Shown here piece after piece: positions 4,359 to 64,000 of a stretch of DNA of 64,000 nt (positions within the stretch are counted from its first letter, which is position 1; the number at the start of each line of letters is the position of its first letter). The notes beneath the pieces were generated by a model that was not told the DNA's origin, made no database searches, and worked only from the letters and a program-made list of their open reading frames with translations. A program made the position numbers and the translations under genes. Source of the DNA: Clostridiales bacterium (GTDB lineage: Bacteria; Bacillota; Clostridia; Oscillospirales; Acutalibacteraceae); the NCBI GenBank assembly GCA_012523185.1, contig JAAYIY010000037.1, positions 1 to 64,000 on the forward strand. Direction: 5' to 3'.

Positions 4359-4537
4359 TATTTCAAATTGCCGAAACAGCGGAGACAGTAAAAAAGAAAT
4401 TCAATGAAAAGTTTTCAGCATTTTGCTGAAAGTCAAGAATAAATGTAGCAATTTGTAAAAAGATGATGTATAATGCCTTTAGTCTTAACAGGAAACCGTG
4501 ATATATAATTAAATTAACATATTTGGTTCAAAGTGCC

Positions 4538-4566: not shown

Positions 4567-4600
4567 GCCATTAACGTTTTTGATAATGGAGGGCTGTGTT

Positions 4601-6022: not shown

Positions 6023-6034
6023 GGGGGATGCGAA

Positions 6035-7414: not shown

Positions 7415-7428
7415 GGGGGCGAAGCGCA

Positions 7429-8358: not shown

Positions 8359-8383
8359 TTTTTGCCGAAAGGAAAGATAAGCC

Positions 8384-9037
8384 ATGCGACACGATCCCAT
8401 TAAAACAAACATATTAAGCGTGAAAATAATTCCGAACGCCGACCCGATGATTTTAAGATCGCTCGGAGTGCTTGAGCATGAACGAAGCCTCGGCATCATA
8501 ACGACAGACTGCGACGATGTCTCCTACGCGGCGCTCGACGAAGCGACGAAAAAGGCGAGAGTAAGAGTTGTTTACGCGCGCAGCATGTACGCCGGATCCG
8601 GCAACGCGTCCACAAAGCTTGCGGGCGAGTTTGTCGGCGTAATTGCGGCAGACGAGCCGGAGGAAGTCAGGAGCGGGCTTCAGGCGGCAATCAGCTTTAT
8701 GGAAAACGACAGTTTTTTTTACAGCGCCGCGGACGACGATTCAATCATATATTTCGCGCACTGTATATCAAGGACAGGTTCATTTCTTTCATCGGAGGCG
8801 GATGTCACGGAGGGCATAGCCATGGCTTACCTGATAGCGCCGCCTATGGAGGCTTTACTGGGGCTTGACGCCGCGTTAAAAGCCGCTGATGTAGAGCTGA
8901 AGGTGTTTTACGGCCCGCCTACCGAAACAAACTTCGCAGGCGGTCTTCTCGTCGGCGACCAGGCGGCGTGCAAGGCGGCGTGCGAGGCTTTCGCGGACTC
9001 TGTCTGCGAAACGGCGGAAAATCCATTGGTATTTTAA
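8384..9037 (+). CDS. eutL: EutL, trimeric microcompartment shell protein
   Basis: A 217-residue tandem-BMC shell protein (BMC-T) that forms pseudohexameric trimers with a gated central pore in the ethanolamine microcompartment facet. It begins with the EutL signature (ILSVKIIPNADPMILRSLG), has a first permuted BMC fold to about residue 105 and a second after it. The C-terminal LKVFYGPPTETNFAGGLLVG block is also typical. Length equals that of known EutL (about 219). It lies 25 bp after eutC and 14 bp before eutE. Confidence 0.95.
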   Translation: MRHDPIKTNILSVKIIPNADPMILRSLGVLEHERSLGIITTDCDDVSYAALDEATKKARVRVVYARSMYAGSGNASTKLAGEFVGVIAADEPEEVRSGLQAAISFMENDSFFYSAADDDSIIYFAHCISRTGSFLSSEADVTEGIAMAYLIAPPMEALLGLDAALKAADVELKVFYGPPTETNFAGGLLVGDQAACKAACEAFADSVCETAENPLVF

Positions 9038-9051
9038 AGGAGGCGTTTAAG

Positions 9052-10563
9052 ATGGCGCTTGACAAAGACCTTCAGTCTATCCAAGAGGTGAGGGAGCTTG
9101 TCGCCGAGGCAAAAGCGGCGCAGGCGATACTTGCGACATTCAGCCAAGACAAGATTGACGATATATGCCGAAATATTGCCGCCGAATGCTCAAAGCACGC
9201 CGCGGAGCTTGCGGAAATGGCTGTCGAGGAAACGGGGTTTGGCAACAGCCGTGACAAAACTCTTAAAAATCTGCTCGGCAGCGTCATGACGTGGGATTAC
9301 GTTAAGGACATGAAAACAGTTGGGATAATCAGCGAAAGCAAGCGTGACAGGATTTTGGAGATTGGCGTCCCGATGGGTGTCGTCGCCGCGCTTATTCCGT
9401 CCACAAACCCGACCTCCACCACGATGAACAAAGCTATCATCTCCATAAAATCCGGAAATTCGATAGTGATAAGCCCGCATCCGGGCGCAAAAAAATGCAT
9501 TGTCGAAACGGCAAAGATAATCCAAAAAGCCGCGTCGGAGGCAGGCGCGCCGAAAGGCGCCGTAGGCTGCATTGAAATGACGTCGATGGAAGCGACAAAT
9601 GAGCTTTTGAAGCACCGCGACACAGGCATTGTGCTTGCGACAGGCGGCGAGGCGATGGTGAGAGCGGCATACAGCTCGGGAAACCCCGCGATTGGTGTCG
9701 GACCCGGCAACGGGCCGTCATATATTGAGCGCACGGCCGATGTCAAAATGGCTGTAAAGCGCATTTTTGACAGCAAAACATTCGACAACGGCACTGTTTG
9801 CGCGTCCGAGCAGTCCATTGTCACAGAGCGCTGCATAGAGGACGAAGTCGTCAATGAAATAAAGGCTCAAGGCGGCTTTTTCCTGTCGGATGAAAGCTCA
9901 AAAAAGCTTTCGGGCTTCATCCTCCGCTCAAACGGCACGATGAATCCGCAGATTGTCGGGAAAACCGCCGAGGTAATCGCCGAAATGGCGGGTATAGATA
10001 TTCCGCACGGCACACGGGTTTTGCTTTCGCGCCAAACGGAGGTTTCAAAAACAAACCCGTATTCAAGAGAAAAGCTTTGTCCGATATTAGCCTTTTATGT
10101 TGAGGATTCATGGGAGGCTGCTTGTGAGCGTTCGATACAGATACTCAATGTCGAGGGGCTTGGGCACACAATGACGATACACTCCGGCGACGACAAGATA
10201 ATTCGTGAGTTCGCGCTTAAAAAGCCTGTTTCCAGACTTCTTGTCAACACTCCGGGAGCGCTCGGCGGTGTCGGCGCGACCACAAATCTTGCGCCTGCCT
10301 TGACTCTCGGCTGCGGCTCTGTCGGCAAGGGAGCGACAAGCGACAACATAACGCCTCTGAATCTCATAAACATCCGCCGTGTGGCGTGGGGATGCTGTGA
10401 GCTTGAGGACTTGAACTCCAAGGGCGCGGGGGCTTCTGTTTCCCCGTCCGCCGCACCGCCCGTGGCGCGAAGATCTGCGCCGACATCACCTCCTTCGCTT
10501 TCGAGGGATGAGATTGAGCGCATTACGCGCGAGGTTATTTCACGCATGGGCGGAAGCTCATAG
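9052..10563 (+). CDS. eutE: EutE, CoA-acylating acetaldehyde dehydrogenase with C-terminal targeting helix
   Basis: Converts acetaldehyde, NAD+ and CoA to acetyl-CoA inside the microcompartment. I start it at ATG 9052, behind a strong AAAGGAGG. The 503-residue protein has the aldehyde dehydrogenase fold: PSTNPTSTTMNKA (N-terminal NAD site), VGPGNGPSYIERTAD, and FDNGTVCASEQS with catalytic Cys250. After the catalytic domain comes a Pro/Ala/Ser-rich linker (about residues 455-480) and a terminal amphipathic helix, DEIERITREVISRMG. This looks like an encapsulation peptide placed at the C-terminus, not the N-terminus as in Salmonella EutE. No separate alcohol dehydrogenase gene accompanies it. 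Confidence 0.94.
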   Translation: MALDKDLQSIQEVRELVAEAKAAQAILATFSQDKIDDICRNIAAECSKHAAELAEMAVEETGFGNSRDKTLKNLLGSVMTWDYVKDMKTVGIISESKRDRILEIGVPMGVVAALIPSTNPTSTTMNKAIISIKSGNSIVISPHPGAKKCIVETAKIIQKAASEAGAPKGAVGCIEMTSMEATNELLKHRDTGIVLATGGEAMVRAAYSSGNPAIGVGPGNGPSYIERTADVKMAVKRIFDSKTFDNGTVCASEQSIVTERCIEDEVVNEIKAQGGFFLSDESSKKLSGFILRSNGTMNPQIVGKTAEVIAEMAGIDIPHGTRVLLSRQTEVSKTNPYSREKLCPILAFYVEDSWEAACERSIQILNVEGLGHTMTIHSGDDKIIREFALKKPVSRLLVNTPGALGGVGATTNLAPALTLGCGSVGKGATSDNITPLNLINIRRVAWGCCELEDLNSKGAGASVSPSAAPPVARRSAPTSPPSLSRDEIERITREVISRMGGSS

Positions 10564-10573
10564 ACGATTAATT

Positions 10574-10589
10574 CGCGGCGATTGCCGCG
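10574..10589 (+). other. small hairpin between eutE and eutM
   Basis: CGCGGC-GATT-GCCGCG forms a perfect 6 bp stem with a tetraloop in the 65 bp gap before eutM. It is followed by GTTATAATTATAC, not a T-run, so it is probably not a terminator. It may protect or process the mRNA upstream of the abundant shell gene, or mark a secondary promoter (TATAAT at 10592-10597, with no good -35). The function is inference. Confidence 0.4.
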
Positions 10590-10628
10590 TGTTATAATTA
10601 TACAAACTATTTTCAGGAGGATTAAACA

Positions 10629-10925
10629 ATGGCAGAAGCATTACAAGCACTCGGAATGGTTGAAACAAAAGGACTTGTCGGCTCTATTGAGGCGGCAGAC
10701 GCGATGGTTAAGGCGGCAAATGTCAGCCTTATCGGCAAGGTTCACATAGGCGGCGGACTTGTGACGGTTATGGTAAGGGGCGATGTCGGAGCGGTCAAGG
10801 CGGCGACAGATGCCGGCGCGGCGGCCGCGTCAAAGGTCGGTGAGCTTTTGTCCGTCCATGTGATACCGCGCCCGCACGGGGATGTCGAGCAGATTCTTCC
10901 CGTTCTTAAGTCGTCCGACAAATAA
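10629..10925 (+). CDS. eutM: EutM, hexameric BMC shell protein
   Basis: A 98-residue single-BMC-domain protein that tiles as hexamers to form the main facet of the microcompartment shell. The N-terminus ([20 protein letters not shown]) and the central [24 protein letters not shown] region, with the pore loop, are classic for the EutM/PduA group. [11 protein letters not shown] closes the domain. A strong CAGGAGG precedes the start. It lies between eutE and eutT and is separated from eutE by a hairpin, fitting a need for more protein than its neighbours. Confidence 0.96.
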
Positions 10926-10930
10926 TCACA

Positions 10931-11665
10931 ATGAGGATATTGACGGAAGCGGACCTTAGGGCCTCGTTTCAGACTGACGGCATAAAGGAATACTCCGTGC
11001 CGCCGGATGTGTTTGTGACGCCCGCGGCAAAGGAGTACCTTGATGCAAGGGGCATAAAAATTGTCGTCACAGACGGCGAAAAAACCTGTTTCAATGAAAC
11101 GAAGCAGGCTAAGGCTTTCGCGCCGAAAAGTGCCTTTATCGGCACGGCTCCGGGCGAAAAATATGACATAAAGCCGGAAAACATGACACACCTGCGCGGA
11201 AATGTGATTGTGCCCAAAATTCACCCCGTTATCGAATTCAGAGGCAAAATGGACACGCTGCAAGCCGACATCATACTTGTCCAAACGGCGGCGTCAAGGC
11301 TTTGCATGGATTCTCTTGCGGAGGATTTGCAGGAAACACTGCTTTTTACGAGAGCTGTTCTTGGTGCGGAGGTGAACAATTCACCTTTGGAGGAGCCGCG
11401 CTTGCTTGGGTTTTCTTATCCTGAGCTGCGCCGCGTTTCACACGACATAAAATCGGAGCTGGGGCTTGAAAGCCATCCCGTCCCCGACTATACGATGGGC
11501 GAGCTGCCCGCCGCTGTCAACGCGCTTAGGGCAAAGGTTCGTGAAGCCGAGCTTGCGGCGGCCGCGGCGCTGCCTGACAGGATAGATATTCTGACGGCGC
11601 TAAACAGGCTTTCAAGCTGTATGCATATCATTTTTTGCCGCCTGCTCATGGGTTATTACAGCTGA
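10931..11665 (+). CDS. eutT: EutT-like corrinoid adenosyltransferase
   Basis: Makes adenosylcobalamin, the cofactor of EutBC, from ATP and reduced cobalamin. The 244-residue protein has the EutT layout: an N-terminal region with the VFVTPAAKEYLDARGI motif, a middle block KIHPVIEFRGKMDTLQADII, and a helical C-terminus (DILTALNRLSSCMHIIFCRL). It starts only 5 bp after eutM. I do not see the HX11CCXXC metal-binding motif known from Salmonella EutT, so it may handle cobalamin differently. PduS, further down the operon, could supply the reducing step. Confidence 0.87.
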   Translation: MRILTEADLRASFQTDGIKEYSVPPDVFVTPAAKEYLDARGIKIVVTDGEKTCFNETKQAKAFAPKSAFIGTAPGEKYDIKPENMTHLRGNVIVPKIHPVIEFRGKMDTLQADIILVQTAASRLCMDSLAEDLQETLLFTRAVLGAEVNNSPLEEPRLLGFSYPELRRVSHDIKSELGLESHPVPDYTMGELPAAVNALRAKVREAELAAAAALPDRIDILTALNRLSSCMHIIFCRLLMGYYS

Positions 11666-11681
11666 ATGAAGGTGTTTTAAA

Positions 11682-12338
11682 ATGAACGAAAATGAAATCA
11701 GAGAAATAGTCGAGCGTGTGTTTGAAAAGCGGCGCGCCGCGGACGGAGCGGCAAAAGACGAAGCCGCCGGCAGCAAAATTCTCATCGAGGCTTCCGCCCG
11801 CCATGTACATCTCACAAAAGAAGCCGTGGAAAACCTTTTCGGAAGCGGCGAAAAGCTTAATTGTGTTCGTGAGCTTTCACAGCCGGGGCAGTTTTTAAGC
11901 GACAAGCGTGTTAAAATTATTTCTCCGAAAGGAATCATCGAGAATGTGGCTGTTTTAGGACCCGAACGCCCGTCGGTGCAGGTCGAGCTGTCGTTGACAG
12001 ACTGCCGCGCGCTGGGCATTGACGCGCCTGTAAACATGTCGGGCGACATGAGCGGTGCGGCCGATGTTTTCATTTCGGGCGAAAAAGGCGTAATTTTTGC
12101 GCGTGAAAGCGCAATCGCGGCAAAAGCGCACATACATTTGCGCCCCCGCGATGCCGAAGCACACGGAGTTTCGAACAATCAGCACGTCAAGGTCAAAGTC
12201 GGGGGCAGGCGCCCGCTCACCTTCGATGATGTCGTCATAAGAGTCAGCGAAGATTACGCGCCAGCAATGCACATCGACTTTGACGAGGCAAACGCCTGTT
12301 GCCTTGAAAAAGGCATGGAAGGCACGATAATAAAATAA
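11682..12338 (+). CDS. pduL: PduL-type phosphotransacylase
   Basis: Converts acetyl-CoA and phosphate into acetyl phosphate and free CoA, recycling CoA in the lumen. The 218-residue protein has two PduL barrels with zinc-binding His clusters: ARHVHLTKEAV (His41, His43) and AHIHLRPRDAEAHGV (His150, His152, His161), plus a further His at 168. The first 17 residues (MNENEIREIVERVFEKR) form an amphipathic helix that looks like an encapsulation peptide, followed by an Ala/Asp linker. PduL here takes the place of EutD. A repeat remnant lies between this gene and the next. Confidence 0.94.
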   Translation: MNENEIREIVERVFEKRRAADGAAKDEAAGSKILIEASARHVHLTKEAVENLFGSGEKLNCVRELSQPGQFLSDKRVKIISPKGIIENVAVLGPERPSVQVELSLTDCRALGIDAPVNMSGDMSGAADVFISGEKGVIFARESAIAAKAHIHLRPRDAEAHGVSNNQHVKVKVGGRRPLTFDDVVIRVSEDYAPAMHIDFDEANACCLEKGMEGTIIK

Positions 12339-12381
12339 TCAAGCACCTTGCTTTGACGCGGGACGACTGTGTATACGCGTT

Positions 12382-12422
12382 CAACAAAGGTTTCAGCCGC
12401 TCATTGCGCGGTGTTGCCTTAA
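12382..12422 (-). repeat. remnant of the TTAAGGCAACACC repeat inside the eut operon
   Basis: About 41 bp matching the same end of the repeat as the copy at 1-128, and in the same orientation: CAACAAAGG, then TCAGCCGCTCATTGCGCGG, then TGTTGCCTTAA. It sits in the 121 bp gap between pduL and the next operon gene, without disrupting either. No T-run or other transcription stop goes with it. Confidence 0.65.
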
Positions 12423-12459
12423 GATTCAAAAGGCGATGAAAATAAATCGAGGTGATTAT

Positions 12460-13122
12460 ATGCCTGAAATTTCAAATGAACAGCTCATTGAAATTATCAC
12501 GCGCGAGGTTATGAAGATTATGAGCGAGGGCAAAAACGAGATCGACGACAAAAGTGACGACAAAAGCGGAATGTCCGCGGCTCTTGTCATAGGAAACGCC
12601 GACCTGCTTCCGCCGTCAATCAAAAGCAGGCACAATATCCTCGGCATCGAAAGCTACACCTGCGAGGAAGATATAGTCAAGTTTGAAAAGATTTTTTTAA
12701 CAGAATTGAGCTTGACGGAGCTTGCTGATATAGCTCTCGGCAGAAACACGCGCGCCGTCCAGTGCGCTGTGATATCGGGGCTTCAAAACGGCACTGAAAT
12801 CCTCCTTTTCGACAGCGCACTGACGTTCAGAAAGAAATCGCCGTCAATGTCAAGAGGGTTTTATCAGCTTCTTGAGGGATATGTCAGGACGCTTCAAGGC
12901 TTTGGGATTAAGCTTGTCAGCGGTCAGACTCCCATCGACAAATACACGGCTCGCTCCGCTCCGGGCGGCGAATTGCCTGAGGGCATAATCACGGAGGCTG
13001 TCGCAGTATCAATTGTGAAAAAGTCGTCAGAAACAACAGTGTTTCTTAAAAAAGGGACAGTTGTCACTCCGTCGGCAAGGGATGTTTTTCTTCATTCCGG
13101 CAAGGTTATCGAAATAGTTTAA
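12460..13122 (+). CDS. Firmicutes-type ethanolamine utilisation protein of unknown function
   Basis: A 220-residue protein resembling the conserved hypothetical family found in ethanolamine microcompartment operons of Firmicutes (the TIGR02536 type). I start it at ATG 12460, behind GAGGTGAT. It begins with an amphipathic helix (ISNEQLIEIITREVMKIMSE), then a Lys/Asp-rich linker (residues about 26-40), then a globular domain. That layout suggests a lumen cargo protein. The C-terminal part (VFLKKGTVVTPSARDVFLHS) looks like a beta-rich end. No catalytic motif is evident and the function is unknown. Confidence 0.8.
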   Translation: MPEISNEQLIEIITREVMKIMSEGKNEIDDKSDDKSGMSAALVIGNADLLPPSIKSRHNILGIESYTCEEDIVKFEKIFLTELSLTELADIALGRNTRAVQCAVISGLQNGTEILLFDSALTFRKKSPSMSRGFYQLLEGYVRTLQGFGIKLVSGQTPIDKYTARSAPGGELPEGIITEAVAVSIVKKSSETTVFLKKGTVVTPSARDVFLHSGKVIEIV

Positions 13123-50982: not shown

Positions 50983-53298
50983 ATGGACGGCTGTTTAATT
51001 ATTGAGGGCGGCGCGCTGCGCGGGATACACACCTCGGGCGTGCTTGATGTCCTGATGAAAAATGAAATATATATGTCGAGCGTCATAGGCGTTTCCGCCG
51101 GGGCGCTCAACGGTTTTAATTACATCTCAAGGCAGCCGGGGCGCTCTGCACGGGCAAACCTTGAATTTATAAAGGATGAAAGATATTTTAACCTCCTGAA
51201 CATCGCCAGGAGAAAAAGCGTGTTTGGATTTGACTTTATGTTCGGGGGGATGAGCGAGATAATGCCCTTTGATTCTGACACGTTTGAAAACTCCGCGCAA
51301 AAGTTTTTTATTGTTGCGACAAACGTCGACACAGGCAAGCCTGTATATTTTGAAAAGGGTGTCTGCTCCGATATTTTTGCCGCCGGAGCCGCGTCGGCAA
51401 GTCTCCCTTTTTTGTCGCCGCCTGTGACGATTGAGGGACGCGAATATATCGACGGCGGCATTTCCGACCCTGTCCCGATAGAAAAAGCGCTGGCAGACGG
51501 TTACGGTAAAATTGTGGTTGTGCTTACGCGCCACAAGGGTTTCCGCAAGCCTACGATGCCGATACCTGAGCGGGAGACGGCAAAGATGCTTTATAAAGAC
51601 AAGCCGGAGCTGCTGGAGGTAATCCTTAACACAAACAAAGCATACAACGAAACGCTTGACCTCATCGACAGGCTTGAGGAGGAGGGCAGGATATTCGCTT
51701 TGAGACCGTCCTCGGAAATTGGCATCAACTTTTTTGACACAGATTCCGACAGGCTCGGGTTTTTGTATCAAACGGGGATAACGGATGCCGGAAACAGTCT
51801 TGACGCGCTGCGCAAATATCTCGGGATTAAGACAAAGCCAAAAAGCTGCCGCGCGGGCGGAGTGAGGAAGTATGATATTTCAGATTACGCAAGCGAAAAC
51901 CTTCTTTACAGCCGCGTCCAAACAATGAACGGCTTCGGCAGCAGGCTGACGGGCAGCGAGGGGCAGCGCAAATTCATAAGGTACCTAAAAAATGAGATAC
52001 GCAAAATGAATTTGGAGATATATTCCGATCCCCACTTCTTTGACCGATGGGAGGAAAAAGACAGGTCGCTCGTCATACACAGCCCTGGCGGCGCCGAAAA
52101 TATCTCTGTTTCATCCGTTTTTCCATACTCCGGCGAAACAGATGAAAAAGGCGTGACGGCGGAGCTTGTTTATGCGGGCGGCCCCATAGAGTTTATTAAC
52201 GCAAGGGATAAGATTCTTGTCACAAAGGTCAACAAGCCGGATTTTTTGCCGTCGTCGCTTTCCTTTGACAGGCGGAGGGCAAAACCGAAGGACGTCGATT
52301 TGCCGAAGAACTACACGGGACCAATAGCGGCATCTTTTTATCATCTGTCCCTTTTAAAGGCCGCAAAGCTTGCGGGGGCAAGGGCGGCTGTCTGCGTCTG
52401 GGACGGCATGAGCGATGAGAGCATCAAGGGGCAGTATCTGCCGTTTGTGCTTGACTATCAGGGCATACCGGCAGTGTGGGTAAACGCGGCGGAAGGCAAA
52501 AAGGTGATTGACGCGGCGGAGGCGCACAGAAACGCCTCTTTCACGCTGACCGCGGAAAAAGAGAGCTGCGCGCGCACCGAAACCTTTTACTGCATGATTG
52601 AGGGCGAAAACAAAGAAGAAGCCGTAATCATCAACAGCCACACTGACGGAACAAACTGTATCGAGGAAAACGGCGCGATTGCGATGCTTTCGCTCATAGA
52701 TTGCCTGCGCGGTAAAAAGCTTAACAGGACGCATATATTCGTTTTTGTGACAGGTCATTTTCGCCTTCCGATGTTCAAAAGTCCGTTGGGCGGAGGTGTT
52801 CAAGCGACATCAAAGTGGCTTGGCGCACATCCCGATTTATGGGACGGAAAAGGCGGGCATCTGAAGGCTGTCGCCGGTTTGTCAATCGAGCATCTCGGCT
52901 GCATGGAATGGAAGGATGTCGACGGAGTTTATGCCAAAACGGGAAATATCGAGACAGAAATAGTTTATACCGGAAACAAAATAATGGACGAAATTTATTA
53001 CAGAGCGCTCGAGGGCAGAAGCCGTGTGCGCACTCTGACATTGCGCGGTCACAACCTTTTTCATTTTGGCGAGGGTCAGCCGCTGTTTAATGCCAAGATA
53101 CCTGAAATAGCTTTCGTGGCGTCTCCGGACAGTCTTTGTGTTGTGAGTGAAAGCCATGAGATGGAGAAATTTGACGCGGCATTAATGATGCAGCAGACGC
53201 AGACATTCCTCAACTGCCTTACAATGATAGACGACATGCCGAAATCCGCCATTGGGAGCTGCGAGCAGAACTCCCTCATCAGGGTGCGGAGAAAATGA
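50983..53298 (+). CDS. fusion of patatin-like phospholipase and M28-type peptidase-like domain
   Basis: A 771-residue protein with two hydrolase folds. Residues 1-285 are a RssA-type patatin: IIEGGALRGIHTSG (oxyanion loop), IGVSAGALNGF with Ser38, and YIDGGISDPV with Asp157. From about 305 on there is an aminopeptidase-like part (DYASENLLYSRVQTMNGFGS, then GSRLTGSEGQRKFI) with a PA-like insert and the metal core around VIINSHTDGTNCIEENGAIA (His553, Glu561/562). The usual Glu-Glu of M28 reads as Gly-His in FVFVTGHF (residues 587-593), so the metal site may be altered. No signal peptide: a cytoplasmic protein. I know of no standard family with this order of domains. Confidence 0.75.
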   Translation: MDGCLIIEGGALRGIHTSGVLDVLMKNEIYMSSVIGVSAGALNGFNYISRQPGRSARANLEFIKDERYFNLLNIARRKSVFGFDFMFGGMSEIMPFDSDTFENSAQKFFIVATNVDTGKPVYFEKGVCSDIFAAGAASASLPFLSPPVTIEGREYIDGGISDPVPIEKALADGYGKIVVVLTRHKGFRKPTMPIPERETAKMLYKDKPELLEVILNTNKAYNETLDLIDRLEEEGRIFALRPSSEIGINFFDTDSDRLGFLYQTGITDAGNSLDALRKYLGIKTKPKSCRAGGVRKYDISDYASENLLYSRVQTMNGFGSRLTGSEGQRKFIRYLKNEIRKMNLEIYSDPHFFDRWEEKDRSLVIHSPGGAENISVSSVFPYSGETDEKGVTAELVYAGGPIEFINARDKILVTKVNKPDFLPSSLSFDRRRAKPKDVDLPKNYTGPIAASFYHLSLLKAAKLAGARAAVCVWDGMSDESIKGQYLPFVLDYQGIPAVWVNAAEGKKVIDAAEAHRNASFTLTAEKESCARTETFYCMIEGENKEEAVIINSHTDGTNCIEENGAIAMLSLIDCLRGKKLNRTHIFVFVTGHFRLPMFKSPLGGGVQATSKWLGAHPDLWDGKGGHLKAVAGLSIEHLGCMEWKDVDGVYAKTGNIETEIVYTGNKIMDEIYYRALEGRSRVRTLTLRGHNLFHFGEGQPLFNAKIPEIAFVASPDSLCVVSESHEMEKFDAALMMQQTQTFLNCLTMIDDMPKSAIGSCEQNSLIRVRRK

Positions 53299-56220: not shown

Positions 56221-56797
56221 AATAAGTGTTTTTATAAGGCCGTATGAGGCGAGGGATTACGACAGGGTCAGGCTCATTTGCATAGCGACCTCCGACACAA
56301 AAATCAGGAGCGAGTCAAAAAGGACATTTATTTTAAAAATGTACTGCGACTATTACATCGAGTCGGAGCCGAAAAACTGCTTTGTTGCTGTTGACGGCGG
56401 CGCCGACGGTGCCGAGGAGCAGGTTGTGGGCTATATCCTTTGCGCGGCGGACTGTGAAAGCTATGCGAAAAACTTTTTAAAAAACTATGTTCCGAAAATA
56501 AAAGCGACCGGAAGGCTTAACGGCTTTACCGCGCGTTCCGAAGTTTTTCTTTATTCAAGATATGCCGCGTTTTTCCCCGCCCACTTGCACATTGATGTTT
56601 TGCCTGCGTATCAGCGGCTGGGGATTGGCAAAATGCTCACGGATACGCTGCTTGAGCATCTTCGTGAAATGAAGATAAAAGGAGTTATGCTCGTCGTGGG
56701 GAAAAAGAATGTCAAGGGACGCTCGTTTTACTACAAATACGGGTTTTCAGAAGTGGGCAAGGCAGGCCCCGGAGTTGTTTTTGGAATTGATTTATAA
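56213..56797 (+). CDS. GNAT family acetyltransferase
   Basis: A 194-residue N-acetyltransferase. I start it at ATG 56213, just behind GAAAGGA, overlapping uxaB by 8 bp. HIDVLPAYQRLGIGKMLTDT is the acetyl-CoA loop (Q-x-x-G-x-G) and MLVVGKKNVKGRSFYYKYGF the typical end of the fold. Similar proteins lie next to glycosidase and sugar genes in gut bacteria. The substrate is unknown. Confidence 0.85.
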   Translation: MIEISVFIRPYEARDYDRVRLICIATSDTKIRSESKRTFILKMYCDYYIESEPKNCFVAVDGGADGAEEQVVGYILCAADCESYAKNFLKNYVPKIKATGRLNGFTARSEVFLYSRYAAFFPAHLHIDVLPAYQRLGIGKMLTDTLLEHLREMKIKGVMLVVGKKNVKGRSFYYKYGFSEVGKAGPGVVFGIDL

Positions 56798-56951
56798 TTT
56801 TTACGAAACAAACAAGCTGTTAATATGTTTAAACGTCAAATAATTTTGCACAAAGATATTTTAAAACGCATTGAAATGACACATTTTAGTAGATTTGGAT
56901 GAATCATTATACTTTTATGTCACTTTTTTTCTAAATTTTTATGTAATTATG

Positions 56952-56980
56952 TTGACTTCTTATTAACGGAATGTTAATAT
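56952..56980 (+). promoter_or_regulatory. sigma-A promoter of the EAL/TasA/SipW locus
   Basis: TTGACT (56952-56957), 17 bp, TAATAT (56975-56980). The leader runs about 120 bases to 57109. I looked for a cyclic-di-GMP riboswitch and did not find its signature. The rest of the 310 bp gap is AT-rich and holds no gene. Confidence 0.6.
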
Positions 56981-57108
56981 TAGTACAACTAAAGTTATGA
57001 CATCGTATCATATTATGTGCTAATGGCTATATTTCACGGCATATATTTTGTTACAGCCTTGTTTTTTCATTGACATTTGTACTATTTTTTTGACGGGAGT
57101 GCCGCTAA

Positions 57109-57939
57109 ATGGGAGAAAAGAAGCCGGATGAAGCTAAGAATACAGCTGCCCCAAAGACAGACGCAGCCAAAGACACCGCCGCGAAGAAAAAGCCCGCGGC
57201 AAAGAAAAAGACTTCCGGCCGCTCAAGGCTGAGGGCGCTGGAGCTTACATACCAGCCTGTTTTTGACGTTCACTTAAACATGGCGATAGACTATGAAACA
57301 ACCTTTAGGATAAACGACAGGCATATGGGCGTTCTCCTGCACGATGCAATCATCCCCGTCGCGATGAAGTCTCCTCAGATCTGCGACTTGAACATATGGA
57401 ATATTGAGGAGGTCTGCGACGCCATCATCCGCTGCGACAAGCGGGAGGCCGACATAAACAGGGTCATAATCCCGATGTCAGTCAGATACCTTTCCAGGAA
57501 AACCATGTTCCGCCAAATTGTTAAAATTGTCGAGACAAAAGGTGTGAACCCCGATAAATTCTGTTTCAACATCAGCGAAAACATTCTTGAGTCTGAAAAA
57601 CTGCAAGTCAAGGAAAACATCAAATCTTTACGCGAATACGGCTTCCTCGTCTCAATAGACGATTTTGGAGTCGAGTACACCGCGTTGTCACATTTAGGTC
57701 AGTATGAAGTCGATTATATAGGTCTTAACTCAAGCCTTGTCGAGGACATAATGACAAACGAACGGACACAGAACATGGTTCAGGGGATAATGGATTTTGT
57801 AAAGAAACTCGATTCTCAGGTCAAAGTGGACGGTGTGGATTCTAAGGAAAAGGCCGAACTCCTGCGCAGCATGGGCGCTGACCAGATGAAGGGCGGATTT
57901 TATGGGAAGCCGATAAGCGAAAGGCAAATCAGAACCTGA
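57109..57939 (+). CDS. degenerate EAL-domain protein
   Basis: A 276-residue cytoplasmic protein. Residues 1-38 are a Lys/Ala-rich tail without fixed fold. Residues about 43-276 follow the EAL phosphodiesterase fold (LTYQPVFDVHLNMAIDYETT, SIDDFGVEYTALSHLGQYEV, MGADQMKGGFYGKPIS). Several catalytic positions of cyclic-di-GMP phosphodiesterases are changed: EAL reads E63-T-T, the Asn before the Ser is Met123, the Lys of the DYIK block is Gly205, and the late Glu is Asp241. DDFG (184-187) and Glu157 remain. It is probably not a phosphodiesterase; it may bind a nucleotide or a partner. It lies first in the filament-like locus. Confidence 0.8.
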   Translation: MGEKKPDEAKNTAAPKTDAAKDTAAKKKPAAKKKTSGRSRLRALELTYQPVFDVHLNMAIDYETTFRINDRHMGVLLHDAIIPVAMKSPQICDLNIWNIEEVCDAIIRCDKREADINRVIIPMSVRYLSRKTMFRQIVKIVETKGVNPDKFCFNISENILESEKLQVKENIKSLREYGFLVSIDDFGVEYTALSHLGQYEVDYIGLNSSLVEDIMTNERTQNMVQGIMDFVKKLDSQVKVDGVDSKEKAELLRSMGADQMKGGFYGKPISERQIRT

Positions 57940-57975
57940 CTTTGGCGGGTAACATTCAGGTAGGAGTTGATAAGT

Positions 57976-58851
57976 TTGGGCAAAAAGAAAAAGGCGGATA
58001 AAAACATCAATCAGTCCCCGCTGTCCGTCTCGGCGCAGGGAGACAAGGGTCCTTACATACCGGCGCTTTCAATGGCTGACGCGAGCAAAAGATACGACGT
58101 CAACACGACGGCAGAGAAGGTTCGTCGCAGGGATTTCCTCATACGCCTTGTGGCGATAATCCTTTTGGCGCTGTTAATAATCCTCGGCATCGGATATTGC
58201 AGCATGGAGATTCTCAACAAAGCGGGGAGGTTTACTGTCAGCCTGACGCCCAACGAATACGGCATCTCTCTTTCGGACAATCCGGATTTTGAAAACCCCA
58301 CATTAAATCTTTACGCGGATCCGATTGAAGAAATGGACAACATCACAAAGAAATGGATTCAAAACCTTAACGGCGAGTTGGGGGATGATCCCGTTTATGA
58401 AGATTTCAACGATATTGATAAGATATGGGGTCAGCACAACGGCAAAAACTACATAGCTTACACCTTCGGCGTCAAAAACGCGAGCGCGGGTGAAGACGAC
58501 GTCGTTTCATATAGAGTGACGCTTGACACCAACTATGCATATAAAGGCGCGGACGAGGCTGTTCGCGTGGCTGTTTTTAAAAACGGTGTCCCAACAATTT
58601 ACGCAAAGCCGAAAAAGGGGACGCCGGATGGTCTTGAGGACTTTGAGGCGGATAAAAACTTTGTGTCTGACGACATTGTCATGGACGAGATAAGGTCGGA
58701 CTTCAAAGTAGGCGAAATGGACAGATACACTGTTGTAATCTGGCTCGAGGGCGAGGATCCTGAATGTGTAAACGATATTATGGGAGGGGAGGCCAAGTTT
58801 TCGATGAACTTTACTGTCATCGGCGGCAAGAGCTCTGATAACGCCGGATGA
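57976..58851 (+). CDS. membrane-anchored TasA-like protein
   Basis: A 291-residue protein, started at TTG 57976 nine bases after AGGAG. A basic cytoplasmic N-terminus ends in KVRRRDFLIR, then one helix (about residues 54-75) and an extracellular domain. It has no SipW-type cleavage motif, so it stays attached. The domain ends VIWLEGEDPECVNDIMGGEA (Trp256), the same W-x-E-G-x-D-x-x-C motif as in the two secreted proteins downstream. It could be the anchor or base on which a fibre of these proteins is built (inference). Confidence 0.7.
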   Translation: MGKKKKADKNINQSPLSVSAQGDKGPYIPALSMADASKRYDVNTTAEKVRRRDFLIRLVAIILLALLIILGIGYCSMEILNKAGRFTVSLTPNEYGISLSDNPDFENPTLNLYADPIEEMDNITKKWIQNLNGELGDDPVYEDFNDIDKIWGQHNGKNYIAYTFGVKNASAGEDDVVSYRVTLDTNYAYKGADEAVRVAVFKNGVPTIYAKPKKGTPDGLEDFEADKNFVSDDIVMDEIRSDFKVGEMDRYTVVIWLEGEDPECVNDIMGGEAKFSMNFTVIGGKSSDNAG

Positions 58852-58961
58852 GTTGGGGGAGACTCGCCCGTCACATCACGCTCCGGTCAAAGCTTGGCGG
58901 CCTTCCAAAATGTCTTTGACACTTTGGATAAATATTACAAATCTAAATTGGAGGAAAATTT

Positions 58962-59762
58962 ATGAAAAAGCGTTCAATTCTTTCAGCAGTCGCTATGCTT
59001 TTAGTGTCTGCGCTTGTTCTGACTTCAGCAACATACGCTTGGTTCGCCAGCGGTTCCGCCGCGAGCGCCAGCGCGATTACTGCTACTGTAGCTAACAGCG
59101 ACGGAACTCTCCTTATTTCCGCCGATGGCGGCACAACATGGAAGACCGCAGTCGCGATGGGATTAGACCCCACTGACGAGGACGACGCTTACGGTGATTT
59201 TGTCGAGTCGACACTCGTATTTCCGAACATCGGCTCATCGGCAGCGGGCCGCCTTATCCCTGTTTCCGGAACACCGTCTTCAGGTTCCATAACATTTATG
59301 GACGGCAGTCTTGAGGGAACCGCGTTCACATCAAAGACTGCAACGGCAGGCTGGGTAAAGGTTTTATTGAAGGTCAAGTCGACAGTCGCCACCACAATCA
59401 CAGTAGCTCCGGCGTTTTCGACAGCAGCCGATTTCGGTTACTGCTACTTTGTAGTGAACAGCACGGGCTATCTCTACGGTGTTGGAGCTTCCAGGGAGTA
59501 TTTCCCGATAGCCACATCCGGGGGCACAGTCACAGGTGTTGACAGCAACGGCAACGCAATAATGGACATCGGCGACTCATCCCACCCCGTGCTTGCGGCA
59601 CAGCAGACGACAGTTTCGCAGGGCTCTTATGACATAACGGCTGCGGCCGACACATCATATGATGTTGTTTTCTACATGTGGGCAGAAGGCAATGACGCCG
59701 CTTGCACAGGCGCGGTTGCTTCCTCGGCACTCAGCTGCTCAGTGGCTTTCACAAAAGCCTAA
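58962..59762 (+). CDS. secreted TasA/camelysin-like protein 1 with SipW-class signal peptide
   Basis: A 266-residue exported protein. The signal peptide has the SipW-dependent form: basic start, hydrophobic core, then TSATYAWFASG with the TYAWF motif at residues 24-28. The mature part is rich in Ser, Thr, Ala and Gly with alternating beta-strand pattern, typical of TasA/camelysin fibre proteins. The end holds MWAEGNDAACTGAV (Trp240). GGAGG lies before the ATG. TasA proteins form matrix fibres in Bacillus biofilms; here the same role is likely but not proven. Confidence 0.8.
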   Translation: MKKRSILSAVAMLLVSALVLTSATYAWFASGSAASASAITATVANSDGTLLISADGGTTWKTAVAMGLDPTDEDDAYGDFVESTLVFPNIGSSAAGRLIPVSGTPSSGSITFMDGSLEGTAFTSKTATAGWVKVLLKVKSTVATTITVAPAFSTAADFGYCYFVVNSTGYLYGVGASREYFPIATSGGTVTGVDSNGNAIMDIGDSSHPVLAAQQTTVSQGSYDITAAADTSYDVVFYMWAEGNDAACTGAVASSALSCSVAFTKA

Positions 59763-59777
59763 TTAACAGCACGTTTT

Positions 59778-59805
59778 GTGCCGGGCGGTTTTGCCCGTCC
59801 GGCAC
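59778..59805 (+). terminator. hairpin after the first TasA-like gene
   Basis: GTGCCGG (59778-59784) pairs with CCGGCAC (59799-59805), with further inner pairing. No T-run follows, so it may slow but not stop transcription, or protect the mRNA of the fibre protein. Confidence 0.45.
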
Positions 59806-59825
59806 ACCCCTTTAAATCTCCCCCG

Positions 59826-59906
59826 GTAGGGTCGGTTTCAAACCGCCCTAAAATATAATAGTGATTAGCTAAACACTAAATTAGGGCTGCTTGAAGCAGT
59901 CCCTAC
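59826..59906. repeat. 81 bp palindromic repeat element
   Basis: Two 25 bp arms (59826-59850 and 59882-59906) are inverted repeats with five mismatches; both begin GTAGGG when read inward. Each arm alone also forms a hairpin: CGGTTTCAAACCG in the left, CTGCTTGAAGCAG in the right. The differences between the arms are mostly pairs that keep each hairpin. The centre is AT-rich. It resembles dispersed REP-like units of Clostridia; no second copy is in the window. Confidence 0.6.
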
Positions 59907-59916
59907 AAGAGAGTTA

Positions 59917-59950
59917 CGCCGCGGTCCGCGCGGCCGCGGTGTAATTTTTT
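59917..59950 (+). terminator. terminator before the first SipW gene
   Basis: CGCCGCGG and CCGCGGTG (59917-59941) form an 8 bp stem with one G-U pair, followed by TAATTTTTT. It probably ends the transcript of the EAL/TasA part, so the SipW gene may need read-through or its own promoter. Confidence 0.6.
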
Positions 59951-60047
59951 GCTGATTGTTGTAAAAGTGCGATTTATGCGTTGCGTAATCATACAGTGCA
60001 TAAATCACCCTTTTACTGATTTATCAAAAATCGGAGGAATAAAAACA

Positions 60048-61031
60048 ATGAAAAGAATCCTTAACGCGATTGGCAACATTATTGTTACGTTAGTGTTAGT
60101 ATTCGCTATTCTTGTCACAGTTTTAGTAATCACTTCAACAAAAAGTGAAATCGGGGTTCCAAGCCTTTTCGGCTATGCAATCATGAACGTTGAAACAGAC
60201 TCGATGGAAAGCGAAGAGGGTTTTTTCACCGGGGATTTGATCCTGTTAAGGATGATTGAAAAGGAAGAAGCAAACGACCTCAAGGTCGGAGATGTCATCA
60301 CCTTTTGGCGCTATTTAGCAAATGAAAGATACATAGAGACGCACAGAATAATTGAAAACATATATGAAAATCAATATGCCTATGAGGTGGTTGACGGAAT
60401 CAGGATTCACAACGGCAAAAAATGCTATGTGACAAAAGGCGACAACACGCCGGGCGCCGACTTCCTTGCCGGAGGAGAGCTTGATTATGCCACGGATAAC
60501 ACAATAATCGGCGTTTGGGAGGGCAAAAGCATTCCGAAGCTGGGCGCCGCGATAAAGTTCCTGCGTTCGCAGATGGGATTCATGGTCTGCATTGTCGCAC
60601 CCCTTGCGCTTTTATTCTTCTATGAGCTTTACAGATTTATTGTCACAATGAATGAAAAGAAAAAAGAGACGGCTCTTGCCGAGGTAGCCGCTTCCGAAGA
60701 AGAAATAAGACAAAAAGCAATAGCCGAATACCTTGAAAAGCAGCAGGCGGAGCAGGCTTCAGCCGACGGCGCGTCCGCCAACAGGGAAGCCGAGCCTGCC
60801 GTCAGTGACGACGGCAAGGCAGCCAAGGAGCCGCAAAACCCACAGAACGCGGCCGATGAAAAGACGCCGGACGCACCGGACGCACCCAACACGCCGGACG
60901 CACCGGACGCACCCAACACGCCGGACACGCCGGACGCACCCAACACGCCGGACACGCCGGACGCGGCTGACGAGGAAGCACCGGCAGCCGAAGTTCCGGA
61001 GGACAAGACCCCGACGGCGGAGACGAAATAA
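60048..61031 (+). CDS. sipW: SipW-type signal peptidase 1 with long cytoplasmic tail
   Basis: A 327-residue signal peptidase I of the ER/SipW type, which uses a Ser-His pair instead of Ser-Lys. I start it at ATG 60048, behind CGGAGGAAT. Helix 1 is residues about 10-30, Ser52 lies in ETDSMES, His99 in IETHRII, and the KGDN box at 130-133. Helix 2 is about 178-200. The tail is cytoplasmic: one helical motif (AIAEYLEKQ, 224-232) and a Pro/Asp/Ala-rich repeat end. SipW normally processes TasA-class proteins; the two flanking TasA-like genes are the natural substrates. Confidence 0.88.
   Translation: MKRILNAIGNIIVTLVLVFAILVTVLVITSTKSEIGVPSLFGYAIMNVETDSMESEEGFFTGDLILLRMIEKEEANDLKVGDVITFWRYLANERYIETHRIIENIYENQYAYEVVDGIRIHNGKKCYVTKGDNTPGADFLAGGELDYATDNTIIGVWEGKSIPKLGAAIKFLRSQMGFMVCIVAPLALLFFYELYRFIVTMNEKKKETALAEVAASEEEIRQKAIAEYLEKQQAEQASADGASANREAEPAVSDDGKAAKEPQNPQNAADEKTPDAPDAPNTPDAPDAPNTPDTPDAPNTPDTPDAADEEAPAAEVPEDKTPTAETK
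60864..60962 (+). repeat. 27 bp coding tandem repeat in sipW1
   Basis: About 3.7 units starting ACGCCGGACGCACCGGACGC encode PDAPDAPNT-type units. Units 1 and 2 are identical; later ones have a small change (GACACGCCG). Near-identity at the DNA level suggests recent slippage, so the tail length may vary between strains. Confidence 0.85.
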
Positions 61032-61039
61032 ATATCGCG

Positions 61040-61073
61040 CGGGGCGGGTTTAATCCGCCCGCCCCGTTTTGGT
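61040..61073 (+). terminator. terminator after the first SipW gene
   Basis: GGGGCGGG (61041-61048) pairs with CCCGCCCC (61058-61065), followed by GTTTTGGTTT. Confidence 0.7.
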
Positions 61074-61178
61074 TTATCTCTTTTGCCGCAAACCGGATAA
61101 AACCGTGATTTACAAGCTGCCGGGGGCAGCTCATAAATGACGGCTTTGTCAAAATTTTAAAAATGCGAGGTAATAATT

Positions 61179-62018
61179 ATGGTGAGGCGCAAGTTTTATG
61201 CATCGTTATTAATGCTTATTGTGGCATCTATGACGCTGGTATCAGGCACATATGCGTGGTTCTTAGTGGGAGGTTTCGGTTCGCTCTTTGACATCGGTTT
61301 TGATGTTATAGAGGCGGGCGCGGGCATTGAATTAAAAGGTTCGGCGTCATCAAGCACATGGAAATCGCATCTTGAGCGCGATGATTTTGCAGAGGGCAGT
61401 TTCCTTGACGCTGACACAGGCGCTTATTCACCAATTTCATCAAGTGACGCATCCAATGACAGCTTTATCAAGCTGAGTCTTGAGGACAACAACTATATTT
61501 CATCCTCAAACGTAGCCGCCGGTGTGGATTACAACAATTTCACAATGTATGCAAGATCCACAACAGAAGCGCCTGTTAATATCGGGATGAAGATAGCCAT
61601 AAGCAGTGATGAAAATGAGGCGGCCTGCGACGCGGCGCGCGTTTCCGTAACATTCGGAGGCTCCACAAAGATTTACGCTCTAAAAGGGCAGGCGGCGACT
61701 AACGCCGTCACATCAACATTTGCGGACGGAGCTGTCGTCGACACAATCGAGGACAGAATCATCACAAGCGGGGACAGCGGATACTCTGCCGCCAATCTTG
61801 TTTCGCAGAGCTTCACCGAGCTTGACCCCACAGGAGTAATCGACAGCTCGGGCGAACCGATACTTCTTGAGAACATTGTCGCCAACTCAAATGCCACAGG
61901 CTCTCAGATTGATGTGAAGATTTGGCTTGAGGGCAACGACGCCGACTGCGTGGATCTTCCGTCCAACTCGATTGCGGGGCAGTCATTAACAGTCAAGATA
62001 ACATTTACGACACTTTGA
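61179..62018 (+). CDS. secreted TasA/camelysin-like protein 2 with SipW-class signal peptide
   Basis: A 279-residue exported protein. VSGTYAWFLVGG contains the TYAWF motif at residues 24-28, at the same place as in protein 1, though the two mature parts differ strongly in sequence. The mature part is beta-rich (NNFTMYARSTTEAPVNIGMK is a recognisable camelysin/TasA-like strand). It ends with IWLEGNDADCVDLPSN (Trp249). GAGGTAATAATT lies before the ATG. A second, divergent subunit next to its own peptidase gene suggests a two-component fibre or a tip subunit. Confidence 0.78.
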   Translation: MVRRKFYASLLMLIVASMTLVSGTYAWFLVGGFGSLFDIGFDVIEAGAGIELKGSASSSTWKSHLERDDFAEGSFLDADTGAYSPISSSDASNDSFIKLSLEDNNYISSSNVAAGVDYNNFTMYARSTTEAPVNIGMKIAISSDENEAACDAARVSVTFGGSTKIYALKGQAATNAVTSTFADGAVVDTIEDRIITSGDSGYSAANLVSQSFTELDPTGVIDSSGEPILLENIVANSNATGSQIDVKIWLEGNDADCVDLPSNSIAGQSLTVKITFTTL

Positions 62019-62169
62019 TTTTCATTACCGAAGTTTTAAAGATTTTCAAAGCAACAGTCGTTTAGTTGCGTAAAGCCATATTAAACGGCAAGGCGCGCTA
62101 AACGGCAAAGATATCTTGGCATCAAAGCCGAAGGCATCCGAAACCATCAATTTTCAAAGGAAACAAGTG

Positions 62170-63216
62170 ATGAAAATTAATCTTATGGAAAATAAGGTGT
62201 TCGCAAAGATAGCTAATGCTGTCGCGACAATCGTTCTTGTGTTTGCGATATTGATATGTGTTTTGGTAATTGCCTCGATGAAGTCGTCAACAGGCATGGC
62301 GCAGTTGTTCGGTTATTCCCTTTTGTCTGTGCAAAGCGAATCAATGGAGCCCGTTTTTTATAAGGGCGACCTTATTGTTATAAAATGCACCGACGAAAAC
62401 ATGGTTTTCAATGAGGGCGAGATAATCACCTTCACCGCTTACAACGACTACGGGAAAAAGTTTCTTAACACACACCGTATAATAAAAAAGCACACGAGCA
62501 GTGTCAGAAACAGCTATGTTACAAAGGGCGACAACGCGGACAGCGCCGACAGCAGAAAGGTTTATCAAAACTTTGTGCTGGGCAAATACACGGGGCATAA
62601 GCTTTCCGGATTCGGGACTGTCCTTGACTATGTAAGCTCAGGCGCCGGAGTCCTCATTTTCGTTGTGTTTCCGTCTCTCGTAATAATTATTTGGCAGATA
62701 TATATATACATTAAAGAATCCTCAAAGCGCAAACGGGAGTTTCTTGAGGCTGTGGCATTGCAAGCGCAGTCAAACAGCGGCAAATATGTTGAGGAATATA
62801 TAGCGTCGCAAGGGCTTAACGCCGTGAAACCGGCGGCTGACCCGCAGAATCTTCCGGAGCATGAAAAACAGCAGGTGATACAAGATTATCTGCGCGCTCA
62901 GCAAGAGGAGGAGGCAAAAAAGAAGGCAATAATCAACGAATATATAGAAAAGCAAAAAGAAGCTGAGAAAAAGGCCGATGCGGATGTTGAGGCGGCAAAG
63001 ATAAAAGCCATCATAAGTGAATTCCTTGCCCAGCAGCGTGACGCCGAAAGGGAAAAGTCCGGCACGAATAGCAACGAGGAGCAAGAGGGGCAAGAGGGGC
63101 AAGAGGGGCAAGAGGGGCAAGAGGAACAGGAGGGGCAAGAGGAGCAAAAAGAGCATGAGGGGCAAAGCGAAGAAGCTGCCGGAGATATAGGCGAACCGGA
63201 CAGCAAAGGCAAATAG
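62170..63216 (+). CDS. sipW: SipW-type signal peptidase 2 with long cytoplasmic tail
   Basis: A 348-residue signal peptidase of SipW type, started at ATG 62170 behind AAAGGAA. Helix 1 is residues about 14-37, Ser58 is in QSESMEP, His102 in NTHRII, and KGDN at 119-122. Helix 2 is about 160-182. The tail carries four copies of a short helical motif (YVEEYIASQ 206-214, VIQDYLRAQ 236-244, IINEYIEKQ 254-262, IISEFLAQQ 281-289), then a Glu/Gly/Gln repeat. The tail is much longer than in Bacillus SipW and must have a cytoplasmic role, perhaps binding the ATPase or the EAL protein. Confidence 0.87.
   Translation: MKINLMENKVFAKIANAVATIVLVFAILICVLVIASMKSSTGMAQLFGYSLLSVQSESMEPVFYKGDLIVIKCTDENMVFNEGEIITFTAYNDYGKKFLNTHRIIKKHTSSVRNSYVTKGDNADSADSRKVYQNFVLGKYTGHKLSGFGTVLDYVSSGAGVLIFVVFPSLVIIIWQIYIYIKESSKRKREFLEAVALQAQSNSGKYVEEYIASQGLNAVKPAADPQNLPEHEKQQVIQDYLRAQQEEEAKKKAIINEYIEKQKEAEKKADADVEAAKIKAIISEFLAQQRDAEREKSGTNSNEEQEGQEGQEGQEGQEEQEGQEEQKEHEGQSEEAAGDIGEPDSKGK
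63076..63147 (+). repeat. 9 bp coding tandem repeat in sipW2
   Basis: Eight units of GAGGGGCAA or one-base variants encode Glu-Gly-Gln or Glu-Glu-Gln. Like the repeat in sipW1 it lies at the cytoplasmic end of the peptidase, but its sequence is unrelated. Confidence 0.85.
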
Positions 63217-63295
63217 CTTTACACATAAATTGATTGTTAAATCAGGCAAAGCTTTAACATATAAACGGCAAAATTTTTAAAAAGGTGGACTAAGT

Positions 63296-64000
63296 ATGGG
63301 AGCTATCACAAAATTCATGGGCGACTTTTTAGAGCAGTTTTTTGTCAAAGGCGTCTGGGGCATTCTTAAAGGAATAGCGCTCGGTATTGCCAACATATTT
63401 AATATCCCGAAATACATCACAATATTCAAAGGCTATGCTTCAGAGCTCGGCGGCGGCGGAATTGCGCTTGCGGTGCTGGCGATTATACTCGTCCTTGCCG
63501 TGCTGGCGGGCATAGCGTTTCTTCTTGTGCTGCTTTTCAGGAAATATATCCGTTTTCGCAAGACTGTTGTTGACCAGGAAGAGCTGCTCAACGAGGTTGC
63601 GTCGCTTAATCGCGAAGTCATAAAACTGACGCTCGAAAAGGAAAAGATTCTGGCCATGAAGGTTTCGCAGCTTGGTCTGCGTCCCGGCGAAAGCCCATAC
63701 CTTGAGGCTCCCGACGGAAGCGACGGAGAGTCCGACGAGGGCAAGGGTGAGGATTCTGACAAGCATGATGAGGATTACAGCCGTTTCTACAAGCTGACAC
63801 AGGTTGATATTGAGCTTGAAGACTATCAGCCGCCCGAATACGACAACGAAATAACGCTTCCGGGCATCATTGATATGTTCAGAAACTTTGCGGCGTCCAG
63901 GATGGGGCTTTATTACGAGCCCGGCATCATACGTCTTTTTATAGCGGCGTTCTCAACGACAAGGCTCATCATCCTTCAAGGTATTTCCGGAACGGGTAAA
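63296..64000 (+). CDS. membrane-anchored AAA-like P-loop ATPase, cut by the window edge
   Basis: An open frame from ATG 63296 (behind AAAGGTGG) to the last base, 235 codons so far. Residues about 56-81 form a membrane helix. Residues 88-122 can make a coiled coil, 139-160 are very acidic, and a globular domain starts near 165. The last visible residues are LIILQGISGTGK (224-235), a Walker A motif preceded by a strand, as in AAA+ ATPases such as the McrB type. The catalytic domain would lie in the cytoplasm or outside depending on topology; cytoplasm is expected for an ATPase. It is the last visible gene of the TasA/SipW locus. Confidence 0.75.
   Translation, partial: MGAITKFMGDFLEQFFVKGVWGILKGIALGIANIFNIPKYITIFKGYASELGGGGIALAVLAIILVLAVLAGIAFLLVLLFRKYIRFRKTVVDQEELLNEVASLNREVIKLTLEKEKILAMKVSQLGLRPGESPYLEAPDGSDGESDEGKGEDSDKHDEDYSRFYKLTQVDIELEDYQPPEYDNEITLPGIIDMFRNFAASRMGLYYEPGIIRLFIAAFSTTRLIILQGISGTGK

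Follow-up and report, generated by a model that had tools for sequence, protein, structure and literature searches.

A putative CoCoPALM-type surface-fibre operon with SipW signal peptidases, an McrB-like NTPase and a degenerate EAL protein in a Clostridiales genome

What would a cytoplasmic EAL-like protein and a membrane-bound nucleoside triphosphatase (NTPase) do among genes for surface fibres? The question is raised by seven genes at the right-hand end of the stretch of DNA analysed here (the window: 64,000 nucleotides of a Clostridiales bacterium, GenBank assembly GCA_012523185.1, contig JAAYIY010000037.1; that is, bases 1-64000 of contig C5, G000:C5, 99,744 bp, in a genome of 2.15 Mb). 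These genes encode, in order, the EAL-like protein, a membrane-anchored TasA-like protein, two pairs of an exported TasA-like subunit and a SipW-type signal peptidase, and the NTPase. A first-pass annotation of the window had read them as a candidate new fibre system in which each subunit may have its own peptidase. In our judgement the balance tips slightly in favour of a CoCoPALM-type surface-fibre system, in which a membrane platform controlled by the NTPase and the EAL protein would dock the SipW peptidases and gate the release and assembly of the fibre.

The gene run and its conservation

The seven open reading frames (ORFs) of the first-pass annotation are all real, and their strand, place and order were correctly described; the unit is larger, since only 7 of its 18 genes had been seen. 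The window edge cuts gene 7 at 64000. To the right of it we found the rest of the NTPase gene (to 64855) and 11 further genes on the same strand, up to 91016 (contig and window coordinates are the same). The run covers 57109-91016, about 34 kb, on one strand, and the next large gene beyond it, a murD-like gene at 91123-92481, lies on the opposite strand. The 18 genes are listed below (TM, transmembrane helix; ER, endoplasmic reticulum; aa, amino acids).

57109-57939, + strand: EAL-fold protein; PF00563 match at E 4e-44; Lys/Ala-rich N-terminal tail
57967-58851, + strand: ANC, anchored TasA-like protein; one TM at about residues 57-75; aligns with T1 and T2; start codon uncertain (TTG at 57967 or 57975)
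58962-59762, + strand: T1, TasA-like and exported; signal with the ending TYAWF, conserved in relatives
60048-61031, + strand: SipW1, archaeal/ER-type signal peptidase; ATG start; TIGR02228 at 62.5 bits; two TMs
61179-62018, + strand: T2, TasA-like and exported; signal with the ending TYAWF; modelled as a beta-sandwich
62170-63216, + strand: SipW2, archaeal/ER-type signal peptidase; ATG start; TIGR02228 at 81.2 bits
63296-64855, + strand: membrane-tethered NxD McrB-like AAA+ NTPase (519 aa); Walker and NxD motifs, McrB profile match, TM
64906-66999, + strand: DUF2357 coiled-coil protein (697 aa); PF09823 match
67129-84546, + strand: giant secreted protein (5,805 aa); GLUG repeats, CBM5/12
84592-85293, + strand: T3
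85320-85910, + strand: SipW3
85876-86412, + strand: SipW4
86409-87050, + strand: T4
87057-87548, + strand: SipW5
87558-88598, + strand: exported protein, 346 aa
88595-89326, + strand: anchored protein, 243 aa
89438-90460, + strand: anchored protein with a basic tail, 340 aa
90435-91016, + strand: anchored protein, 193 aa

Gene order is identical across all 18 genes, the nine after the giant included, in three congeners, namely G009, G006 and G002 (corresponding to loci L019, L020 and L021). The upstream order, EAL-ANC-T-SipW-(T-SipW)-NTPase-DUF2357, is repeated in dozens of loci of other genomes, which bears out the earlier proposal of one conserved unit combining SipW-type subunits with cytoplasmic EAL-like and NTPase parts. 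The NTPase protein was found at 42 loci of public genomes, all of them metagenome-assembled genomes, labelled as Clostridia, Oscillospiraceae, Ruminococcaceae, Christensenella and, once, Bacillales; many of these genomes come from the guts of ruminants or other herbivores. An order-wide sample of 295 genomes gave an NTPase match in 30, and at all near-full-length loci of this sample (23/23, L077-L099) both a SipW gene and a DUF2357 gene stand beside the NTPase gene. The conserved order and this linkage exclude that the genes are scattered in relatives, or that gene 7 comes from an unrelated unit. It is well supported that the 18 genes form one unit and, from their strand, spacing and conserved order, we infer a single transcript.

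When wider flanks were considered, some relatives had a second SipW or a giant-type protein on the other side, with the core still together. Across 398 genomes sampled from the phylum, every McrB-type match outside the own genome was weak (E about 1e-31 to 1e-36), and none had a SipW within its flanks of about 1.5 kb; hence we considered the SipW association as a feature of this subfamily and not of McrB generally.

An Rfam search of the region 56700-63300 at E <= 1 gave no cyclic di-GMP (c-di-GMP) riboswitch and no other element. Simple scans for promoters (16 vs 9.1 expected from shuffling, standard deviation 3.5) and terminators (13 vs 10.2, standard deviation 3.1) were near the shuffled expectation and were not used. 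Terminator-like, GC-rich inverted repeats are present in the T1/SipW1 gap (59762-60047) and in the SipW1/T2 gap (61039-61067), and they may reduce expression downstream of T1. In C. perfringens, a readthrough terminator follows bsaA.

The NTPase, its DUF2357 partner and the EAL protein

In gene 7 the Walker A (QGISGTGKTSL), Walker B (DE) and N-x-D-D-S-T-F motifs are invariant in 37/37 sequences, from which we consider the NTPase to be probably active. Its profile matches the E. coli McrB structures (E 2e-8), and a single TM helix, at about residues 63-81, is followed by a charged, helix-like stretch. The earlier label "ATPase" may not hold, as gene 7 belongs with McrB, and the characterised protein of that family is a GTPase. 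The N-x-D-D motif is the NxD variant, usually followed by E or D, described by Bell et al. (PMC11090510). Gene 8 has the N-terminal domain of McrC, DUF2357 (PF09823 above the cut-off, E 8e-11, with relatives reaching 3e-15; 6/6 members tested were above it), followed by a long and variable K/R/E-rich charged tail, helix-like and of coiled-coil type. A fold search with a model of the N-terminal part of the DUF2357 protein (predicted template modelling score, pTM, 0.46) listed only coiled-coil and unrelated matches; McrC was not listed, which is no evidence of its absence.

Some variants of these two genes were also observed. At L032:11562-13790 the DUF2357 gene is in two open frames (150 and 593 aa), either a broken gene or an assembly error. 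At L125 (G557:C29:1-18000) two NxD-type NTPase copies flank one DUF2357 gene, and no SipW was found in the 18 kb; the copies belong to a second NxD-type subfamily, seen also at L103 and L104, that does not have the N-terminal TM part.

Is such a core already described? In one paragraph of its main text, the paper of Bell et al. (eLife 2024) names a CoCoPALM class, deferred to a forthcoming publication, and defines it by an McrB GTPase with an FtsB-like TM and coiled coil, a coiled-coil McrC and an association with signal peptidases (PMC11090510). Judged by sequence against this published description, the NTPase/DUF2357/signal-peptidase core of the operon fits the class: in common are the NxD McrB-like GTPase (NxD signature in 37/37), the coiled-coil McrC homologue (DUF2357 in 6/6) and the linked signal-peptidase genes (23/23 loci, in addition to the five in the operon); the TM and the charged, helix-like stretch of gene 7 may correspond to the FtsB-like TM and coiled coil. 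The core class is already named, so the operon is not categorically new, and the first-pass remark that no described system with this content was known does not hold for the core. What appears to be new in the literature searched is the complete set of parts, together with its fibre-type substrates, the link with a dead EAL protein and the SipW-tail motif presented below (the naming paper in its main text; most subscription journals lay outside the search). The main text of PMC11090510 makes no mention of TasA-like substrates, of an EAL protein, of a giant adhesin-like protein, or of SipW and its tail motif; TasA and SipW are missing from the preprint too, and a later paper characterising CoCoPALM was not found in the same literature.

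The family origin of these proteins in McrBC also suggests a different reading, in which the McrB/DUF2357 pair is an anti-phage module (Type IV restriction or CoCoNuT-like) that would sense infection at the surface, for example when a phage binds to the fibre, and would target nucleic acid or the membrane, with the fibre genes as a sensor or as mere neighbours. McrBC and CoCoNuT systems have in common with the operon the McrB-type NTPase and its DUF2357 partner, the NxD motif is shared with CoCoNuTs, and the PADLOC candidate model PDC-M26A is matched at E 4e-40. Here, however, the NTPase is membrane-anchored and lies within a surface-protein operon, and Pfam detected no nuclease in gene 8 and, across the scanned proteins of the operon, neither a nuclease nor a HEPN or nucleic-acid-binding domain; these proteins do not include the linked HEPN or other nuclease by which CoCoNuTs are recognised when the McrC nuclease is missing. 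Moreover, the same fibre genes are fixed beside the pair in distant relatives, and the neighbour turnover typical of defence islands is absent. We consider an anti-phage role quite improbable. As a separate candidate, a nuclease-bearing defence island was rejected.

Of 33 loci whose upstream sequence is long enough, 32 keep the EAL fold. Catalytic positions of the window protein are changed (N to P, K to L and the general-base E to D), and many relatives also lack the Glu of the EAL motif, with more catalytic positions lost. From these changes we predict that the window protein is catalytically dead, and we propose that it is a receptor or a scaffold. At L113-L119 a large EAL protein is encoded after the downstream SipW, in the same direction (e.g. 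L113:13695-16007), and L113 and L119, which were looked at more closely, encode here a GGDEF-EAL protein of the membrane that keeps its EAL motifs intact (EALVRW, VNVSR, SIDDFG, KLDR, QEGVE). Because such intact proteins lie in the same gene run of relatives, the gene context ties the system to c-di-GMP. In two further loci (L037:4764-6092 and L040:6022-7365) an HD-domain segment, with an HD_5 match in L037, precedes the degenerate EAL domain, and both look inactive. In the LapD/LapG/LapA system of Pseudomonas, a catalytically dead EAL protein acts alongside a protease and a giant adhesin with repeats, to which it is linked. The likeness is one of analogy only: the protease, the envelope and the logic are different, and the EAL fold is the sole homologous part.

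The loss of the EAL residues needed for catalysis would also suit an NTPase that acts as a motor or remodeller and not as a gate of SipW. Like FtsH or a ring remodeller, it would extract, cluster or recycle precursors or SipWs stuck in the membrane, and the EAL protein would be only a structural adaptor. The AAA+ ring family, the TM anchor and the intact Walker motifs are in line with this. On the other side, McrB-type rings are known as GTP-driven translocases of DNA, which McrC stimulates, and not as unfoldases of proteins (PMC11090510), and a Pfam search gave neither a protease nor an unfoldase domain. We regard such a motor as unlikely.

SipW peptidases and exported proteins

We considered as SipW-type the peptidases above the TIGR02228 cut-off of 51.85 bits. 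All the SipWs of the operon (5/5) and no other protein of the genome are above it, and both SipW1 and SipW2 have the Ser, His and Asp motifs. The cut-off of NF046067, the Bacillus SipW equivalog (190 bits), was not reached, the best score being 116 bits; by these profiles the operon SipWs are relatives, as opposed to the Bacillus equivalog.

SipW1 and SipW2 have a long cytoplasmic tail past the second TM. SipW1 has in its tail a single IAEYLEKQ motif and a low-complexity PDAPNTPD stretch, SipW2 four motifs of the YxxxQ type (VEEYIASQ, IQDYLRAQ, INEYIEKQ and ISEFLAQQ). The tail motif, [IV]xE[YF][LIVM]xxQ (also written [IV]xE[YF]LxxQ) and often EEYLAxQ, is present in one to four copies in such tails and is conserved in SipWs upstream of the NTPase. 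Precisely, the strict pattern was found in 55/68 SipWs upstream of the NTPase versus 3/30 downstream, while other ORFs, 331,091 residues in all, gave 3 matches; a slightly looser pattern gave 73 motifs in the listed SipW tails versus 0.26 expected when each tail was shuffled. Since the pattern was drawn up with SipW1 and SipW2 of the window in view, these two do not count as independent; the remaining loci do, though not fully where they are close relatives. At locus L046, where no EAL gene is present upstream, the SipW is short and motif-less and the DUF2357 protein is short as well; this single case suggests that these parts function together.

A motif dedicated to the SipW tails is difficult to reconcile with the NTPase, DUF2357 and EAL genes being passengers that linkage retains in a SipW/TasA fibre operon and that have no fibre role. 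The same is true of the linkage itself, which is tight in several families and in other orders, where the DUF2357 proteins go down to about 30% identity. Although the SipW fibre operons of Bacillus and C. perfringens do function without these genes, we consider the passenger reading very improbable. The tapA-sipW-tasA operon of B. subtilis has in common with the present one a SipW-type peptidase and fibre-type beta-sandwich subunits, T2 showing a moderate likeness to the TasA fibre, but it consists of three genes, without NTPase, DUF2357, EAL or giant, whereas here there are several SipWs, two of them with long motif-bearing tails, and no PF12389 match. The sipW-bsaABCRSD operon of C. perfringens is also a clostridial SipW operon, and its exported subunit forms filaments, but it is controlled by a two-component system and no NTPase or EAL gene is reported in it (PMC7395162).

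In T1, T2 and most of their relatives the N-terminal helix ends in T[YF]AWF (TYAWF or TFAWF), in agreement with the SipW-type signal T-x-A-aromatic/A-F; TasA carries a signal of this kind, which SipW cuts (PMC10269814). ANC, T1 and T2 can be aligned and have WxEGxDxxC in common. ANC has a basic cytoplasmic N-terminal tail, one TM and no SipW cleavage motif, and it adjoins the EAL gene in relatives. The predicted model of T2 (mean predicted local distance difference test, pLDDT, 86) has the TasA fibre 8aur as its best structural neighbour (Z 6.8, 133 residues, root-mean-square deviation 3.5), followed by other beta-sandwich chains, many of which are pilus subunits. Because an unrelated chain scores 6.4, we consider the likeness of this model to the TasA fibre moderate. 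Foldseek with T2 gave no significant match, the subunit profile had no match among PDB sequences, and PF12389 (Peptidase_M73) had none in the own genome, while the B. subtilis control did match.

The idea of one peptidase per subunit is not general. In loci L030, L031 and L120 a single SipW gene and at least two TasA-like genes precede that of the NTPase, and in the full operon five SipWs are found among eight or more proteins that are exported or anchored. The largest of these, the giant, is probably an adhesin-like beta-solenoid because of its GLUG repeats, two of them placed above the cut-off, and its CBM5/12 matches; its first half had no match among PDB sequences. Further large ORFs with GLUG repeats above the cut-off are present in the own genome, on contigs C6, C66 and C70 of G000.

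A possible platform for gated fibre release

Signal peptidases are usually seen as housekeeping enzymes that are not regulated, and fibres of the TasA type are taken to assemble by themselves after cutting. For this operon we infer a gated process. The TasA-like precursors would exit via Sec and be held in the membrane by their uncleaved signal helix. The McrB-like NTPase, anchored through its TM and coiled coil, would form a membrane platform together with the EAL protein and the DUF2357 coiled-coil protein, and the latter would stimulate the NTPase ring as McrC does McrB. The SipWs encoded upstream of the NTPase would dock on this platform via their cytoplasmic tails, the EAL protein, a receptor or scaffold ancestrally linked to c-di-GMP, would set its state, and NTP turnover would decide when and where SipW cuts the TxAWF site. 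The cut would free a new N-terminus as a donor strand for polymerisation, as in TasA, for which donor-strand assembly is established (PMC9674648). ANC, not having the cleavage motif, would keep the fibre base at the membrane, while the GLUG/CBM giant and the late subunits with the tail-less SipWs 3-5 may give adhesive or accessory parts.

We favour this gated platform because the 18-gene order is kept in three congeners and NTPase, DUF2357 and SipW genes occur together at every near-full-length locus; because the NTPase has invariant motifs and a TM, with DUF2357 in every member tested; because the tail motif is enriched, the TYAWF/TFAWF signals are conserved and the TasA fibre is the top neighbour of T2; and because relatives have GGDEF-EAL proteins with intact motifs and donor-strand assembly is known for TasA. 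Some points weigh against it. In Bacillus and in C. perfringens (PMC7395162), fibres arise from SipW operons that have neither an NTPase nor an EAL gene, so the platform is dispensable in principle. The EAL protein and the tail motif are both missing at L046, and the SipW tails of L121-L124 are different (charged, LRAELxE-like), hence these parts are not universal. The structural match of T2 to TasA is, as said, moderate against the score of the unrelated chain.

If the gated platform is correct, fibre maturation could be controlled from the cytoplasm via the SipW tails, an McrBC-family NTPase and a dead EAL protein. For the CoCoPALM class, the operon provides a concrete list of parts, likely substrates and, in Clostridia of the rumen and gut, a docking motif that can be tested. 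We put forward only tentatively the broader proposal that a restriction-type McrB/McrC N-terminal machine was recruited as an NTP-driven, second-messenger-linked, regulated signal-peptidase hub that draws in its peptidases by the tail motif and switches extracellular fibre assembly on and off, and that would represent a new class of Gram-positive surface organelle.

Two other loci of the window were annotated by eye. The region 4523-13122 is a run resembling an ethanolamine-utilisation microcompartment (EutA-, EutB-, EutC-, EutL- and EutE-like), with an RnfC-like gene at 13435. At 50983-53298, a 771-aa protein has a patatin-like N-terminal half and an aminopeptidase-like half, an unusual fusion.

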